The notes below the pieces were generated by a model. It was not told the origin of the DNA. It saw only the letters and a list, made by a program, of their open reading frames with translations, and made no database searches. Both the position numbers and the translations under genes were made by a program. 64,000 nt of DNA, taken from Erythrobacteraceae bacterium. GTDB lineage: Bacteria > Pseudomonadota > Alphaproteobacteria > Sphingomonadales > Sphingomonadaceae. Each line of letters starts with the position of its first letter. The first letter of the stretch is position 1. Shown here piece by piece: positions 13,449 to 56,044 of this stretch. The DNA is taken from contig JAHEAX010000001.1 of the NCBI GenBank assembly GCA_024642525.1, forward strand, positions 1-64,000. Direction: 5' to 3'.

Positions 13449-14660
13449 ATGTCGACTATCCTGGTAATCGGTGCGGGCGGTGTCAGCTCGGTCGCTGTCC
13501 ATAAAATGGCGATGAATGCGGATATTTTCACAGATATCCACCTGGCCAGCCGGACCAAGACCAAATGCGATTCCATTGCCGCCAGCGTCAAATCGCGGAC
13601 CGGGCAGAATGTGGCCACATATGAAATCGACGCGGAAGAAGTGCCTGCCATGGTCAATCTGATCCGCAAGGTCCGGCCAAGCCTGGTTGTGAACCTGGCA
13701 CTGCCTTATCAGGATTTGCCAATCATGGATGCCTGCCTTGAAGCAGGTGTCAGCTATCTCGATACTGCCAATTACGAACCCAAGGACGAAGCCAAGTTCG
13801 AATATCACTGGCAGTGGGCATATCACGACCGTTTCAAGGAAGCGGGCCTGATGGCGCTGCTGGGTTCGGGTTTTGATCCCGGCGTGACCAGCGTTTTCAC
13901 CATGTGGTTGAAGAAGCACAAGCTGAAGACAATCCGCCAGCTCGACATTCTTGATTGCAATGGCGGTGACCACGGGCAGGCGTTTGCCACCAATTTCAAC
14001 CCTGAAATTAACATTCGCGAAGTGACCGCGCCTGCGCGACACTGGGAAAATGGCGAATGGGTCGAAACCCCAGCCATGTCGGTAAAGCAGCCGTTCGATT
14101 TCGACCAGGTGGGCGAAAAGAACATGTATCTGATGTATCACGAGGAACTGGAAAGCCTGGCCAAATTCGTACCTGAACTCGAACGCGCGCGCTTCTGGAT
14201 GACTTTCGGTGACGAGTATATCAAGCACCTGACGGTGCTGCAGGCCGTCGGCATGACGGGCATCGAACCTGTCCGCTATCAGGGCAAGGATATCATCCCG
14301 CTCCAATTCCTCGCCGCCGTGCTGCCCAAGCCTGAAACGCTTGGTTCCACCACCAAGGGGAAGACCAACATCGGCGTTATCGCCACCGGCGAAGCCCTGG
14401 ATGGCAGCGGCGAAAAGACGTTCTACATCAACAATATCTGTGACCACGAAGACGCTTTCGAGGAAACGGGCAACCAGGCTGTCAGTTACACCACCGGTGT
14501 TCCTGCCATGATCGGCAGCGCCATGATGGTGACCGGCAAATGGGCCGGTGAAGGCGTATTCAACATGGAGCAGATGGACCCGGACCCGTTCATGGACATG
14601 CTCAATGCCCATGGCCTGCCATGGAATGTGGCCGAATTGGACGGGCCAGTCGGCTTCTGA
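13449..14660 (+). CDS. Carboxynorspermidine (carboxyspermidine) dehydrogenase
   Basis: 403 residues, saccharopine-dehydrogenase fold. NAD(P)-binding VIGAGGVSS at the start, substrate-side LPYQDLPIMDACLEAGVSYLDTANYE near 80-105 and GSGFDPGVTSVF near 138. It condenses aspartate beta-semialdehyde with putrescine (or diaminopropane) and reduces the product to carboxyspermidine. The ATG at 13449 fits the family start. It is followed 40 bp later by the matching decarboxylase, confirming the pathway. This is the alternative, S-adenosylmethionine-independent route to spermidine-type polyamines. Confidence 0.92.
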   Translation: MSTILVIGAGGVSSVAVHKMAMNADIFTDIHLASRTKTKCDSIAASVKSRTGQNVATYEIDAEEVPAMVNLIRKVRPSLVVNLALPYQDLPIMDACLEAGVSYLDTANYEPKDEAKFEYHWQWAYHDRFKEAGLMALLGSGFDPGVTSVFTMWLKKHKLKTIRQLDILDCNGGDHGQAFATNFNPEINIREVTAPARHWENGEWVETPAMSVKQPFDFDQVGEKNMYLMYHEELESLAKFVPELERARFWMTFGDEYIKHLTVLQAVGMTGIEPVRYQGKDIIPLQFLAAVLPKPETLGSTTKGKTNIGVIATGEALDGSGEKTFYINNICDHEDAFEETGNQAVSYTTGVPAMIGSAMMVTGKWAGEGVFNMEQMDPDPFMDMLNAHGLPWNVAELDGPVGF

Positions 14661-14700
14661 TCGTTGTGGGCCGAAAGTTGATTATGCAGGGTAAAGACTG

Positions 14701-15879
14701 ATGGAAACTCGTGCCGGAGATCCGGGCGCCTTTGCGCAATTTGACCTTGGCCGCGTCGACAGTCCATCCTTCGTGGTGGACGCGGCAAAGCTGCGCGACA
14801 ATTTGCGGGTACTGGCCGATGTGCGGGATCGCTCCGGCATCAAGATGTTGTCGGCGCTCAAGGCATTTTCCATGTGGTCGGTCGCGCCCATCATCGGGAA
14901 TTATCTTGATGGTGTCTGCACGTCCGGCCTGTGGGAAGCCCGCCTTGCCGGTGAATTTTACGACGGAGAAATCACCACCTATTCCGCGGCCTACAAGCCG
15001 GATGAACTGGACGAAATCTGCCGCTTGTCAGACCATGTCATCTTCAATTCTCCCGGCCAGTTGACCCGCGCTTCGCAAATTCTCGAACAGGCGCGTGCTT
15101 CGGGCGGGGGATTTGACATTGGCCTGCGGATTAATCCGATGCATGCCGAGGGCGAAGTCCCCCGGTATGACCCGTGCGCCCCCCATTCGCGGCTTGGATT
15201 TCCCATCGACCAGCTGGAGGACGAGCATGTAGAGCCACTCGATGGTCTCCACCTCCACACTCTGTGCGAACAGGATTTTGAACCGCTCAAGCGGACATGG
15301 GAGGCCTTGCGCGAGCATATCGAACCTTATTTCGGCCATTTCAAATGGATCAATCTGGGCGGCGGGCATCATATCACCCGCGACGATTACCAGCGTGAGG
15401 AACTGATCGAATTCCTGATCGAGATACAGGAAGAAACAGGCGCGGAAATCTATCTCGAACCGGGGGAGGCCGTGGCACTGGATGCAGGCATTCTGGTGGG
15501 CACGATCCTCGATAGCCACTGGAACGGGATGCCGCTCGCCATCACGGACATATCGGCCACCTGCCATATGCCGGACGTTATCGAGGCACCTTATCGGCCT
15601 GCCATGCTGCACGAGGATGAAGATGGCGATGGCGATCCTGTGCGTCTGGGCGGTCCGTCCTGCCTCGCAGGGGATGTAATTGGCGATTACCGGTTGCCTG
15701 TGCCGTGCGAGCCGGGCCAGCGCATAGCATTTCTCGACCAGGCCCATTATTCCATGGTGAAAACCAACACTTTCAATGGGGTGCAGCTGCCTTCCATCTG
15801 GCTGTGGGACAGTGAAACTGACGCGCTCGAACAGATCAAGAGCTTCGGCTACGAGGATTTCCGCAACCGCTTGTCCTGA
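14701..15879 (+). CDS. nspC: Carboxynorspermidine (carboxyspermidine) decarboxylase
   Basis: 392 residues, alanine-racemase-fold PLP decarboxylase. The PLP lysine is in MLSALKAFS near residue 53; HLHTLCEQ near 183, NLGGGHHITRDDY near 219 and LEPGEAV near 254 are typical NspC segments. It removes CO2 from carboxy(nor)spermidine to give the free polyamine. Forms an operon with the preceding dehydrogenase. The putrescine-forming decarboxylase follows 192 bp downstream with its own leader. Confidence 0.93.
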   Translation: METRAGDPGAFAQFDLGRVDSPSFVVDAAKLRDNLRVLADVRDRSGIKMLSALKAFSMWSVAPIIGNYLDGVCTSGLWEARLAGEFYDGEITTYSAAYKPDELDEICRLSDHVIFNSPGQLTRASQILEQARASGGGFDIGLRINPMHAEGEVPRYDPCAPHSRLGFPIDQLEDEHVEPLDGLHLHTLCEQDFEPLKRTWEALREHIEPYFGHFKWINLGGGHHITRDDYQREELIEFLIEIQEETGAEIYLEPGEAVALDAGILVGTILDSHWNGMPLAITDISATCHMPDVIEAPYRPAMLHEDEDGDGDPVRLGGPSCLAGDVIGDYRLPVPCEPGQRIAFLDQAHYSMVKTNTFNGVQLPSIWLWDSETDALEQIKSFGYEDFRNRLS

Positions 15880-15922
15880 TCCCCGTCCGCAACCTGCAAT
15901 CCATCGGCCAAATCGCGTTAGC

Positions 15923-15948
15923 CCGCTCGTGCAAAATGCGCGGTTTTT
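15923..15948 (+). terminator. Possible weak terminator after nspC
   Basis: CCGC (15923-15926) can pair with GCGG (15940-15943) around a smaller GCA/TGC stem, followed by five T. The stem is short and bulged, so confidence is low, but it would separate nspC from the ornithine decarboxylase leader. Confidence 0.3.
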
Positions 15949-15971
15949 GAGTCGAATTTCACTTGCAGTTC

Positions 15972-16070
15972 ATGAATCGGGGGTTATATCGCCCTCTCGC
16001 TGCCCCAAGGGGACTTCCTAACCGCAAGGCAGCCTTTGCCAAGAAACTGTTACTTCTGGGGGTCCCTTGA
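15972..16070 (+). CDS. Candidate 32-residue leader peptide upstream of ornithine decarboxylase
   Basis: An ATG-initiated ORF of 32 codons that ends in TGA at 16068-16070, one base before the TTG start of the decarboxylase. The peptide is rich in Arg/Lys and Pro and ends AFAKKLLLLGVP. It uses codons unlike neighbouring genes (two TTA, AGG, GGG, GGA, several CCT). Its ribosome site is weak. The 3' half lies inside a foldable RNA structure. The layout is that of a regulatory leader peptide, perhaps sensing ornithine or polyamine, but it may be incidental to a structured RNA. Confidence 0.5.
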   Translation: MNRGLYRPLAAPRGLPNRKAAFAKKLLLLGVP

Positions 16071-16071
16071 A
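16007..16071 (+). promoter_or_regulatory. Structured leader of the ornithine decarboxylase gene
   Basis: A three-way junction can be drawn. P1 pairs 16007-16014 (AAGGGGAC) with 16062-16068 (GTCCCTT), with one bulged G. P2 is GCAAGG-CAGC-CTTTGC at 16024-16039. P3 pairs AGAA with TTCT at 16042-16057. P1 flanks the G-rich ribosome site and includes part of the leader-ORF stop. Rfam describes a speF leader motif upstream of this decarboxylase class in alphaproteobacteria; whether this sequence belongs to it needs a covariance search. Confidence 0.55.
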
Positions 16072-17277
16072 TTGCACCATTATCCTGACGCTGCTGCAGT
16101 AGTTCGCGCTCTCGCGCCGGACGAGCCAGTCATCCTCAATCGCCCGCACGCCGCTGCGCGAGCCTCTCGATTCTTCTCAGAGAAGTTTCCGGGCAAGTCG
16201 CTTTATGCCGTGAAGGCGAATCCGTCGCCGGACCTGCTCAAGATCCTGTGGGATAATGGCATCACGCATTACGACGTAGCTTCCATCGGTGAAGTCCGCA
16301 TGGCGCGTCAGGCACTGCCTGATGCAACGCTGTGCTTCATGCATCCGGTAAAAACGTCGCGCGCAATCAGTGAAGCTTACCACCAGCATGGTGTGCGCAC
16401 TTTCAGCCTCGACACGATGGAAGAGCTGGAAAAGATCGTCGAGGCGTGCCGCGATGAAGAGGGCAACCCTGCCACGGATCTGTGGCTGTGCGTGCGGCTG
16501 CGTGTTTCATCCGAATATGCAGAGCTTTCGCTCGCATCCAAGTTCGGTGTTGATCTGGCGGATGCGGCCGGCCTGCTGCAGGCCACGCGCCAGCATTGCG
16601 ATGCGCTGGGTGTCTGCTTCCATGTCGGCAGCCAGGCTATGACCCCGTTTGCTTATGTGCAGGCGCTGGAACGTGTGCGTGCGGCCATTGTGCAGGCTGC
16701 TGTTACGGTCGACGTCATCGACGTCGGCGGCGGCTTTCCCAGTGTCTATCCCGGCATGGAACCTCCGCCACTGGAAGATTACTTCGATGTTATCTTCCGC
16801 GCATCGGAATCGCTGCCGATTTCCTATTCTTCGGAACTGTGGTGCGAACCGGGCCGCGCGCTGTGTGCAGAATACAGCTCGCTGATCGTGCGCGTTGAAA
16901 AGCGCCGCGGGGACGAACTCTACATCAATGACGGTGCCTATGGCGCCTTGTTCGATGCAGCCCATGTCGACTGGCGTTTCCCTGTGCTTGCACTGGAAGA
17001 TGACCTGATCGAGTCGCTGGAAGAATTTTCCTTCTACGGCCCAACTTGCGACGATGCTGACTTCATGAAAGGTCCTTTCATGTTGCCGGCAGACATCCAG
17101 GCAGGCGATTACATCGAAATCGGGATGCTGGGCGCTTATGGCGCGGCCATGAAGACCGGCTTCAATGGTTTCGGCGATGCCGAAGCAGTGATCGTCACAG
17201 ATGAACCGATGGCCAGCCTCTATCGCGGGGACCGGATTGATCCTCGTGAAACCGACAATGTGGTGAGCCTCCGCTGA
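16072..17277 (+). CDS. Type III PLP-dependent ornithine/lysine decarboxylase
   Basis: Forms putrescine (or cadaverine) from ornithine (or lysine). 401 residues from TTG at 16072, preceded by GGGGG at about 10 bases; an in-frame TTG at 16036 is possible but runs through the structured leader. PLP lysine K48 in LYAVKANPSPD, HVGSQ near 185, the glycine loop DVGGGFPSVYPG near 218, and CEPGRAL near 259. YGPTCDDADFM carries the catalytic cysteine typical of eukaryote-like ornithine decarboxylases. It supplies the diamine for the two upstream genes. Confidence 0.93.
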   Translation: MHHYPDAAAVVRALAPDEPVILNRPHAAARASRFFSEKFPGKSLYAVKANPSPDLLKILWDNGITHYDVASIGEVRMARQALPDATLCFMHPVKTSRAISEAYHQHGVRTFSLDTMEELEKIVEACRDEEGNPATDLWLCVRLRVSSEYAELSLASKFGVDLADAAGLLQATRQHCDALGVCFHVGSQAMTPFAYVQALERVRAAIVQAAVTVDVIDVGGGFPSVYPGMEPPPLEDYFDVIFRASESLPISYSSELWCEPGRALCAEYSSLIVRVEKRRGDELYINDGAYGALFDAAHVDWRFPVLALEDDLIESLEEFSFYGPTCDDADFMKGPFMLPADIQAGDYIEIGMLGAYGAAMKTGFNGFGDAEAVIVTDEPMASLYRGDRIDPRETDNVVSLR

Positions 17278-17283
17278 TCAGTC

Positions 17284-17312
17284 CGGCGCAGTTGTTTTAC
17301 GAAGCTGCGCCG
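17284..17312. terminator. Possible bidirectional hairpin between convergent genes
   Basis: An 8-bp perfect stem CGGCGCAG/CTGCGCCG straddles the stop of the minus-strand GGDEF/EAL gene and the end of the decarboxylase. There is only a TTGTTTT loop and no following T run, so function as a terminator is uncertain. Confidence 0.3.
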
Positions 17313-19507
17313 CCTGATCCGTTGACGACGACCTGAAGGAATTTGGGCGGGCTTTTGACGCCTTCACTCATCCGTTCGTGCGGATAATTTCCTGGTGAAA
17401 GCGATGTCAGCGGCATTCCGGCGATGGCAAGCGCATAGGGCGATACGCGGTGCCGTGTGCACAGCCCGCCAGCGCCGTCGCTGACCAGCGATGTTTCGAA
17501 TTCAACCGCGATTTCAAGGTTGTGGACACGGCTGACAGTGCCAACCACCAATTGTCCCGCGCCAAGGTCCAGCACCAGCTGCGTATCCACTGGTACACCC
17601 ATGATCCCTTCGATCAATGCGCCTGTCTTCGATAGGTTGCGCATGACCACGTCATAACGGTGGTCATCGTGGATGACACCGATGCGTCGGAAAACAGAGC
17701 GGCGTTCGGGGCGATACAATTCCGGCCCGTCGGGCTTGATCTTCATGCCGCCCGAAGCAACAAGTTCCAGCACGTCTGCCTGGGGCAGGGCGCGTGAATA
17801 GAGGAAGCCCTGGATAAGCCTTGCGCCCTTTGAATGAACGACTTCCAGCTGGTCGAATGCTTCCACGCCTTCCACCGTCGTTTCCATGCCAAGGGCGTTG
17901 GAAAGGCCGATGATGGCCGCAATGATCTTGGCGCTGTTCTTGTCTTTCTGGGTGCAGGAATCGACGAAACTGCGATCGACCTTGATCTTGTCGAACGGTG
18001 CGGAACGCAAATAGCTGAGCGAGGAATAGCCCGTACCAAAATCATCCAGCGCCAGGCGGACGCCGATTTTTTTCAGAGCGGTGAAAATCTCTTCGGTCGT
18101 TTCGCTGTCACCGACAAACACGCTTTCGGTCAGCTCCAGCTCCAACCGGTCAGGCGCAAGCCCTGTCTTGGCGAGTGCTGAGGCGACGACATCGCAGAAT
18201 TCTGGATTGGTGAACTGCACGGCCGATACATTGACTGCCACGCGCACGGATGATGGCCACGCCAGCGCATCTTCGCAGGCCCGTTCCAGCGCCCATTCGC
18301 CAATCTGGTTGATGAGGTCAGATTCCTCGGCAACCGGGATAAACAGTTCAGGGCTGACCGGCCCGCGCTCCGGGTGTTCCCAGCGCATGAGTGCTTCCAG
18401 GCAAACGACCGTGTTGTCACTTGTCTGCACCACAGGCTGGTAGCGAAGTTCAAGATCGCCGGATTCCAGCGCGATGCGCAGGTCTTCCAACAGCAGTTCG
18501 CGCTCTTCTTCCTCGTCCTTCAAATCGTCGGAATAGAAACGGAACTGGCCGCGTCCGCCATTCTTGGCGGCATAAAGCGCAAGATCCGAACTGCGCACCA
18601 GCTCTTCGCGTTCAACGCCATCGTAAGGCGCAATGGCGATGCCAACCGATGTGCCGATGATCGCGCGCTTTTCCTCAATAGGGTAGGGCTGCGACAATAT
18701 CTGGATGATCTTGTCGGCCAGTTCGCCCAATTTGCCGCGGTCATCGATGTCCGGCAGGATAATCTGGAATTCGTCACCGCCCAAACGGCCGATCTCGCCG
18801 CGATTGCCGACGATATTGCGCAACCGTTCAGCCACCTGGACCAGCAGGGCGTCGCCTGCCGGATGGCCCATCGTATCATTCACGCGCTTGAACTTGTCGA
18901 GATCAAGCATCATCAGAGCGCAGCTGCGTTTGGCCGCCTTGAAGGCACCGATAATGCCATCGAGCCGGCGGTTCATGTAATGGCGGTTGTAAAGGCCGGT
19001 CAGCGAGTCAAATTCGGCAAGCCGGGAATCCACCAGCTTGCGTTCATATTCGACACTGATGTCCTGCGCGCTGCCGCGATAGCCTTGAAACTGGCCCCGA
19101 TCGTCAAACTTGGGGTGACCGGAAATCGAAAACCAAACCTGCCGCACATCTGAACGCGGCCGATTGCGCGCAAAGCGCACCGTCAGGTCGCGTACCTTGT
19201 TATGCGCTTTCAACTGGAAGTTGAGCGGCCGGTCGGAACGTTCGTCAGGGTTGTCGACATCGGTTTCGAACAGCGAAATGAGCGGCTGACCCAGCAATTC
19301 CTCGAGTGGAATGTCCAGCTTGGAAACGGCATCTGCCGAAATATAGATGAGGCGGCCTTCGGCATCCGTCGCCCAGATCCAGCCGATGCCGGCCTTTTCG
19401 AATTCATCGAGAACTTCGAGACGCAGTTTCGGGTCCGCAGCGGAATAATCCGTTGTGGAAACAGAGGGCTTTTTGGAAAAGCCTTGCAGGATCCCTTTTA
19501 CAACCAT
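17297..19507 (-). CDS. PAS-GGDEF-EAL-PilZ cyclic-di-GMP signalling protein
   Basis: 736 residues. PAS domain about 25-150, GGDEF domain about 160-325 with intact GRLGGDEF, EAL domain about 335-590 with intact EAL (LEALMRWEHP) and DDFGTGYSS, and a C-terminal PilZ domain about 605-700 with RRSVFR and NLSKTGA. No transmembrane segment is visible, so it is cytosolic. The inhibitory I-site RxxD is absent (GNRG instead). Both synthetic and hydrolytic motifs look complete, and the PilZ domain gives it its own c-di-GMP sensor. Net activity cannot be predicted. Confidence 0.93.
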   Translation of the reverse strand: MVVKGILQGFSKKPSVSTTDYSAADPKLRLEVLDEFEKAGIGWIWATDAEGRLIYISADAVSKLDIPLEELLGQPLISLFETDVDNPDERSDRPLNFQLKAHNKVRDLTVRFARNRPRSDVRQVWFSISGHPKFDDRGQFQGYRGSAQDISVEYERKLVDSRLAEFDSLTGLYNRHYMNRRLDGIIGAFKAAKRSCALMMLDLDKFKRVNDTMGHPAGDALLVQVAERLRNIVGNRGEIGRLGGDEFQIILPDIDDRGKLGELADKIIQILSQPYPIEEKRAIIGTSVGIAIAPYDGVEREELVRSSDLALYAAKNGGRGQFRFYSDDLKDEEEERELLLEDLRIALESGDLELRYQPVVQTSDNTVVCLEALMRWEHPERGPVSPELFIPVAEESDLINQIGEWALERACEDALAWPSSVRVAVNVSAVQFTNPEFCDVVASALAKTGLAPDRLELELTESVFVGDSETTEEIFTALKKIGVRLALDDFGTGYSSLSYLRSAPFDKIKVDRSFVDSCTQKDKNSAKIIAAIIGLSNALGMETTVEGVEAFDQLEVVHSKGARLIQGFLYSRALPQADVLELVASGGMKIKPDGPELYRPERRSVFRRIGVIHDDHRYDVVMRNLSKTGALIEGIMGVPVDTQLVLDLGAGQLVVGTVSRVHNLEIAVEFETSLVSDGAGGLCTRHRVSPYALAIAGMPLTSLSPGNYPHERMSEGVKSPPKFLQVVVNGSGGAAS

Positions 19508-55967: not shown

Positions 55968-56044
55968 GCGCCCGTAGCTCAGCTGGATAGAGTACCTGAC
56001 TACGAATCAGGGGGTCGGAGGTTCGAATCCTTCCGGGCGCACCA
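55968..56044 (+). tRNA. tRNA-Arg(ACG)
   Basis: 77 bases with encoded CCA. Acceptor stem GCGCCCG/CGGGCGC, discriminator A, D-arm AGCTCAGCTGGATAGAGT, anticodon arm CCTGA-CTACGAA-TCAGG with anticodon ACG, T-arm GGAGGTTCGAATCCTTC. The A34 is expected to become inosine to read CGU/CGC/CGA. Confidence 0.98.

Follow-up and report, generated by a model that had tools for sequence, protein, structure and literature searches.

The ornithine decarboxylase-like gene considered here is preceded by a leader that might both fold and code, and the question raised by the locus is whether a short reading frame takes part in controlling the enzyme. The window, that is, the whole 64,000-nucleotide stretch that was analysed (positions 1 to 64,000 of contig JAHEAX010000001.1), contains the gene together with its neighbours. 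Its product of 401 amino acids carries Pfam domains PF02784 and PF00278, and the best solved relatives by sequence are the lysine/ornithine decarboxylases 5gjm, 5gjo and 2plj; no NCBIfam model matches it at cut-off. Two genes directly upstream on the same strand (13449-15879) are carboxynorspermidine synthase-like and carboxynorspermidine decarboxylase-like, both below NCBIfam cut-offs, and the neighbourhood as annotated from sequence is a polyamine gene cluster, which makes a polyamine or ornithine the first candidate for any input. The features discussed below are:

15963-15990, + strand: promoter-like pair TTGCAG (15963-15968) and TATATC (15985-15990) with a 16-nt spacer, found with a loose pattern of our own
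15972-16070, + strand: 32-codon open reading frame proposed by an earlier note, rejected as a gene on its conservation and its place in the promoter-like spacer
15999-16004, + strand: pseudoknot stem, 5' strand GCUGCC, pairing with 16028-16033
16009-16018, + strand: stem P1, 5' strand GGGGACUUCC, pairing with 16058-16067
16022-16027, + strand: highly conserved loop CCGCAA, directly 5' of the pseudoknot strand (alignment A1, below)
16028-16033, + strand: pseudoknot stem, 3' strand GGCAGC, pairing with 15999-16004
16034-16057, + strand: linker, variable in length and sequence, with an extra hairpin in some relatives
16058-16067, + strand: stem P1, 3' strand GGGGGUCCCU, containing the Shine-Dalgarno sequence (16058-16062) and pairing with 16009-16018
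16067-16102, + strand: 11-codon upstream open reading frame (uORF), TTG...CAG TAG, peptide LNCTIILTLLQ*, running across the decarboxylase start in a different frame
16072-17277, + strand: ornithine decarboxylase-like gene with a TTG start

The 32-codon frame and the conserved fold

The earlier note, made from the sequence of the window, had placed a leader peptide gene in the 32-codon frame, whose TGA lies one base 5' of the decarboxylase TTG. The frame exists as drawn. The decarboxylase protein was used to find 80 relatives. None of them has an ATG at the place of 15972, not even the nearest (L001), whose decarboxylase is 97% identical; 23 keep 32 or more open codons and 57 fewer, and in 21 a stop falls immediately 5' of the last three residues. 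Start, frame and residues are thus not kept while the stems are, which is the pattern that the earlier note itself had named as speaking against its peptide. GGGGGUCCCUUGA belongs to the motif, which is why the GVP-TGA end recurs, and the length of the frame is not rare, given that 65 ORFs of at least 25 amino acids overlap 13500-18500 of the window. Moreover, the ATG falls within the spacer of the promoter-like pair. A similar pair (TTG[CA]-N14-19-TATA-like, again by our loose pattern) stands at a similar upstream distance in 118 of 176 loci; a stricter sigma-70 promoter scan of 15800-16150 gave no match. Since the ATG lies inside the pair, the transcript probably starts 3' of it, near 15997. 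That 15972-16070 encodes a translated, stalling leader peptide can draw on the closeness of its end to the decarboxylase start, but with its ATG absent from all 80 relatives, its frame shorter in 57 and its start upstream of the expected transcript, this is exceedingly improbable. The frame is instead a by-product of the conserved RNA, and was rejected as a gene.

What is conserved is a fold. The core of the leader, as aligned, reads GCUGCC, GGGGACUUCC, CCGCAA-GGCAGC, a variable linker and GGGGGUCCCUUGA-N-UUG, and in it a pseudoknot crosses the long stem P1, which contains the Shine-Dalgarno sequence (GGAGG in 51 of 172 distinct loci); both are kept through the family. This arrangement was deduced from comparison of the leaders before the published description discussed below was found. 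Two alignments bear on it. Alignment A1 was not fitted to a model and holds 76 of 81 sequences (the window and 80 relatives); L028, L038 and L064 were left out because a pattern did not find their 5' strand, and L057 and L059 because they are very like L056, omissions that favour conservation in the pairing and covariation counts. Within A1 the pseudoknot stem is paired in 99.1% of cells, with all pairs kept in 73 of 76 rows, and P1 in 88.0%, with all pairs kept in 52 rows. The earlier note's closing stem (16007-16014/16062-16068) corresponds to the outer part of this P1. Its two inner helices did not survive the comparison, P2 (16024-16039) pairing in 51.1% of A1 cells with all pairs kept in 2 of 76 rows, and P3 (16042-16057) in 45.4% with all pairs kept in 7, and both are ruled out as unconserved beside the pseudoknot and P1.

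Alignment A2 comprises 98 chosen rows, namely the window, 39 of the loci L001-L080 and 58 of L153-L212, including L028, L038 and L064, and was made with a model that favours P1 and not the pseudoknot. In it 97.1% of pseudoknot and P1 cells form standard pairs, a value that falls to 39-63% when the partners are slid against each other; cells with changes to both partners number 17, compared with a mean of 0.4 after shuffling, and three of the six pairs of the pseudoknot stem show such changes. Covariation in A1 is thin, because the leader sequence is so conserved: both partners have changed at a single pair (6 cells), and two of five covariation measures do not rise above the shuffles; for the number of covarying pairs and that of further pair types, 201 and 199 of 500 shuffles did as well. 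Kinship among the sequences inflates all such counts. The window's leader folds no better than shuffled sequence in a pseudoknot-free calculation (-25.3 kcal/mol, z -0.36, with 64 of 200 shuffles as good). Taken together, the idea that the leader folds, that its fold reaches the ribosome site and that something short is encoded beside the start holds in outline; the coding frame originally named, the two inner helices and better-than-shuffle folding do not.

Two variations were noted by eye. A longer CCCC-loop-GGGG hairpin lies between the pseudoknot strand and P1 in ten loci (L002, L003, L004, L009, L016, L038, L064, L069, L201 and L212); because its GGGG in part overlaps the beginning of P1, the leader may switch between the two pairings. 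Six loci (L010, L025, L035, L049, L053 and L054) have an extra short linker hairpin with a GNRA-like cap, 5' of the P1 3' strand.

A member of the odc1 motif

The earlier note had expected an alphaproteobacterial speF motif at this position. The corresponding covariance model, RF00518, matches neither the window nor its genome, nor two other listed genomes of the family; it was detected in 6 of the 190 genomes searched from the class and in none of 14 control genomes, and the speF element is ruled out as the identity of the leader. No Rfam 15 family scores above its gathering score at the leader. The sole low-threshold match there, Giardia U2 (E 0.71, at 15.1 bits where the gathering score is 100), was taken as chance, and the only match above threshold anywhere in the window is a tRNA gene at 55968-56041.

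The leader is instead a member of the odc1 motif (uORF-25-1), as judged by the features that a 2021 survey sets out in its text (PMC8632094). As described there, an ornithine decarboxylase gene is preceded by a long P1 whose right shoulder holds the ribosome site and which closes a large loop, a pseudoknot joins the 5' end to that loop, the main start is a UUG with another UUG two bases upstream, and the upstream UUG opens a uORF of 11 amino acids (PMC8632094). Each of these is present in the window: the gene, P1 at 16009-16018/16058-16067 with its large loop, the pseudoknot at 15999-16004/16028-16033, the two UUG at 16067 and 16072, and the uORF at 16067-16102, with no difference in the features that the text gives. 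The coding component, which the earlier note had held to be new, was thus already published and reporter-tested in 2021, and it lies in a different frame from the one proposed. In those reporters, a Sphingomonas echinoides element placed in E. coli used both starts, the uORF about 3-fold more; three loop mutations reduced main-ORF expression and two of the three spared the uORF, and the mutants M4-M6, by their description, hit conserved positions equivalent to about 16022-16027 (PMC8632094). The survey states that uORF length is constant and the peptide conserved, its text giving no control for the overlapping gene (PMC8632094). Among the papers that our literature search brought up, the name odc1 motif occurred in this one only.

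Other leaders of polyamine genes are alike in part. The speF element described from alpha-proteobacteria in 2005 is also a structured leader 5' of a COG0019 ornithine decarboxylase, with no double start in the passages concerned (PMC1273637), but it is a separate RNA, without a match here. The spermidine riboswitch likewise gives RNA control of polyamine-making genes; it is described as a SAM-I variant with an aptamer of that type (PMC10853860), whereas the present leader has no Rfam match above the gathering score. The enterobacterial speF leader shares with odc1 both the link to polyamines and a short ORF, SpeFL, before an ornithine decarboxylase gene. Unlike the odc1 uORF, SpeFL is encoded separately further upstream, is longer and is not known to overlap the main start.

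The motif, the uORF and the double start were therefore known; what is added here is the genome distribution, a handful of loci that depart in length or start, two peptide types and the evidence for codon-level selection on the uORF end. In large searches with a covariance model of the element, which used stricter filters and so lose weak matches, it was found in 192 of the 199 genomes sampled from the window's family (E up to 0.1), despite which Rfam annotation would miss it, in 14 of 60 genomes of the order (E up to 0.1) and in 5 of 385 of the class (E up to 0.01), all 14 and all five lying within the same family. Of the seven family genomes without a match, G074, G142 and G195 form one genus. 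These three are without a close decarboxylase (best matches E 2.3e-16, 8.2e-12 and 7.4e-19) and without a credible element match, a sensitive search giving a single chance-level match at E 3.25, so that gene and element are missing together in that genus. As for the other four, G054 and G132 have weak element matches close 5' of the gene, G135 (a 77% complete genome) has matches at E 0.9 and 2.5 only, and G124 gave no match in the sensitive search.

Three single records may be mentioned. A possible second odc1 copy in G080 reaches only E 0.06 in the sensitive search, and two overlapping matches in G167 are apparently one element with a long insertion. One record titled Actinobacteria bacterium 21-64-8 (L048, CAJCHR010000437.1) carries a sphingomonad-type decarboxylase, 78% identical, with an odc1 element; that genome is probably mislabelled or misbinned.

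The double start and the end of the uORF

The two UUG starts lie 5 nucleotides apart, and the uORF stop (16100-16102) is inside the decarboxylase gene, 28 bases past its start. When the loci are placed by enzyme homology, the uORF has exactly 11 codons in 79 of 81 (the window and 80 relatives), the exceptions being L030, with 9 codons, and L028, without a stop in the stretch read. A pattern that presupposes two nearby starts picked out 172 distinct loci; UUG-NN-UUG is present in 171 of these and the uORF has 11 codons in 168 (the others 9, 9, 10 and 48), with codon 12 being TAG in 159, TGA in 5 and TAA in 4. The pattern was not found in 20 loci: L038, L064, L095, L098, L101, L103, L152, L190, L193, L226 and ten others that are weak model matches and speF loci. 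Nonetheless, L038, L064, L095 and L101 have 11-codon uORFs. Two further loci, L167 and L201, have about five extra codons in the decarboxylase N-terminus, yet their uORFs end after 11 codons.

There are two main peptide types, with variants: the window's clade has L[NS]CTxI[LP]T..L, the other clade L[NS]CTSIIARWG (a pattern-based survey that contributed to these types did not find its pattern in L147, L152, L174, L176, L179 and L190). The last residue varies between loci and is Leu, Pro, Gln or Gly, rarely others. In L190, from genome G052, both starts are ATG instead of TTG in front of an 11-codon uORF, and the decarboxylase is frameshifted in the record; this joint change, seen once, in a frameshifted gene from one genome of its genus, was not counted as support for competition between the starts.

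Because the uORF overlaps the decarboxylase, its conservation could be borrowed from the enzyme, and synonymous codon choice was therefore compared with the rest of the same gene. The comparison covered 164 of 176 loci (118 in the window's clade and 46 in the other), genes of fewer than 330 codons or identical to another having been dropped. Of the 117 valines that the window's clade has at the decarboxylase codon over the uORF stop, 114 are GTA (background 4.2%), which makes this codon the most biased of 349 sites; the codons that set uORF residues 11 and 7 rank third and fourth. In the other clade the site over the stop is also the first, of 330, all 35 of its leucines being CTA or TTA (background 2%), and glycine 9 is third, with GGG in 46 of 46 genes (background 10%). 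The second-ranked site in each clade is the TTG start itself.

Counts of change on a tree (116 and 46 loci, L167 and L201 left out) point the same way. Across decarboxylase codons 7-10 in the other clade no third position has changed, which places these four sites 1 to 4 among 192 fourfold sites with a median of 13; codons 11 and 12, beyond the uORF stop, show 16 and 14 changes. Only 5 of the 192 sites are unchanged, and the chance of hitting four of them, worked out after the result had been seen, is about 9e-8. The window's clade shows 2 changes at codon 10, the fewest among 184 sites with a median of 31, and 27 at codon 11. The first-ranked codon over the stop in both clades and the unchanged wobble positions together indicate that the uORF end is under selection which the decarboxylase frame does not explain. 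Our literature search, which left subscription journals largely uncovered, found no earlier test of selection on the odc1 uORF end.

Structure avoidance near start codons in general could bias early codons with no uORF involved. A/T wobble bases are common near starts, and CCT and GCT are enriched in one clade. This account is nevertheless very improbable, given that the fixed wobble bases of codons 7-10 in the other clade are G, G, G and A, that constraint ceases just past the uORF stop, and that nine loci end the uORF with TAA or TGA.

Which property of the uORF is selected can be approached by dividing substitutions into classes (113 and 46 loci, leaving out L167, L201 and loci without an 11-codon uORF). 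Changes in the window's clade that are silent in the enzyme and alter the uORF number 128 against 83.2 expected, and those silent in the uORF and altering the enzyme 87 against 106.7. The direction is reversed, weakly, in the other clade (13 against 16.3 and 19 against 14.7 expected), where all 9 changes in the last four codons, CGC TGG GGN TAG, are uORF-silent. The position of the stop is thus the general constraint, and the end of the peptide is constrained mainly in one clade.

This bears on whether the uORF encodes an arrest peptide, 11 amino acids long, with which the ribosome would stall at the stop on polyamine or ornithine and block the decarboxylase start. Precedents are SpeFL in enterobacteria and MAGDIS in the AMD1 mRNA. 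The kept length and stop of the uORF would fit such a peptide, as would the uORF-silent changes in the last codons of the one clade. Yet within the window's clade uORF-altering substitutions are frequent, with variation in both the interior and the last residue, and 11 amino acids would hardly fill the exit tunnel, so that an arrest peptide is unlikely; the substitution counts speak against a role of the peptide sequence and favour termination geometry over a classic arrest peptide.

A proposed gate with competing starts and termination

The best explanation of the locus, to which we give about three chances in four, is an odc1 RNA gate combined with competing starts, the end of the uORF being selected. 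P1 and the pseudoknot would hide the ribosome site from both starts; when the fold opens, the two starts would compete for one Shine-Dalgarno sequence, and the RNA loop would set the share of ribosomes that choose the decarboxylase over the decoy uORF. A polyamine-pathway signal may be the natural input. A ribosome ending the uORF would sit 25-28 bases into the decarboxylase gene, close enough to meet the ribosome that initiates next. Because the fixed end would make a terminating or pausing ribosome overlap the next decarboxylase initiation, termination on the uORF is probably part of the control. Several observations count against this explanation: the uORF interior is weakly kept in the window's clade, its last residue is variable, the folding energy is ordinary, covariation in A1 is thin and four of the 172 loci break the length rule.

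It is possible, although doubtful, that a metabolite riboswitch suffices, a ligand (polyamine, ornithine or other) stabilising the pseudoknot and P1 and shutting both starts, with the uORF a by-product. The authors of the 2021 survey name a riboswitch as one possibility (PMC8632094), and a compact pseudoknot that buries the ribosome site and holds many near-invariant bases is in keeping with it. A by-product, however, would not be expected to fix the uORF stop, over which the codon ranks first in both clades, nor to leave the wobble sites over the last four uORF codons of one clade without change.

Within the reading of a gate with competing starts, a more specific and tentative proposal is that the uORF acts as a timed decoy, its stop held roughly a ribosome's length into the decarboxylase gene; a ribosome terminating or pausing there in response to polyamines would then block the next initiation. 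If true, this would be a bacterial overlapping uORF that senses by its termination site and not by its peptide sequence, combined with a pseudoknot gate. Control of ornithine decarboxylase sets the polyamine supply, and the codon evidence shows that the overlapping uORF, above all the position of its end, matters to the cell.
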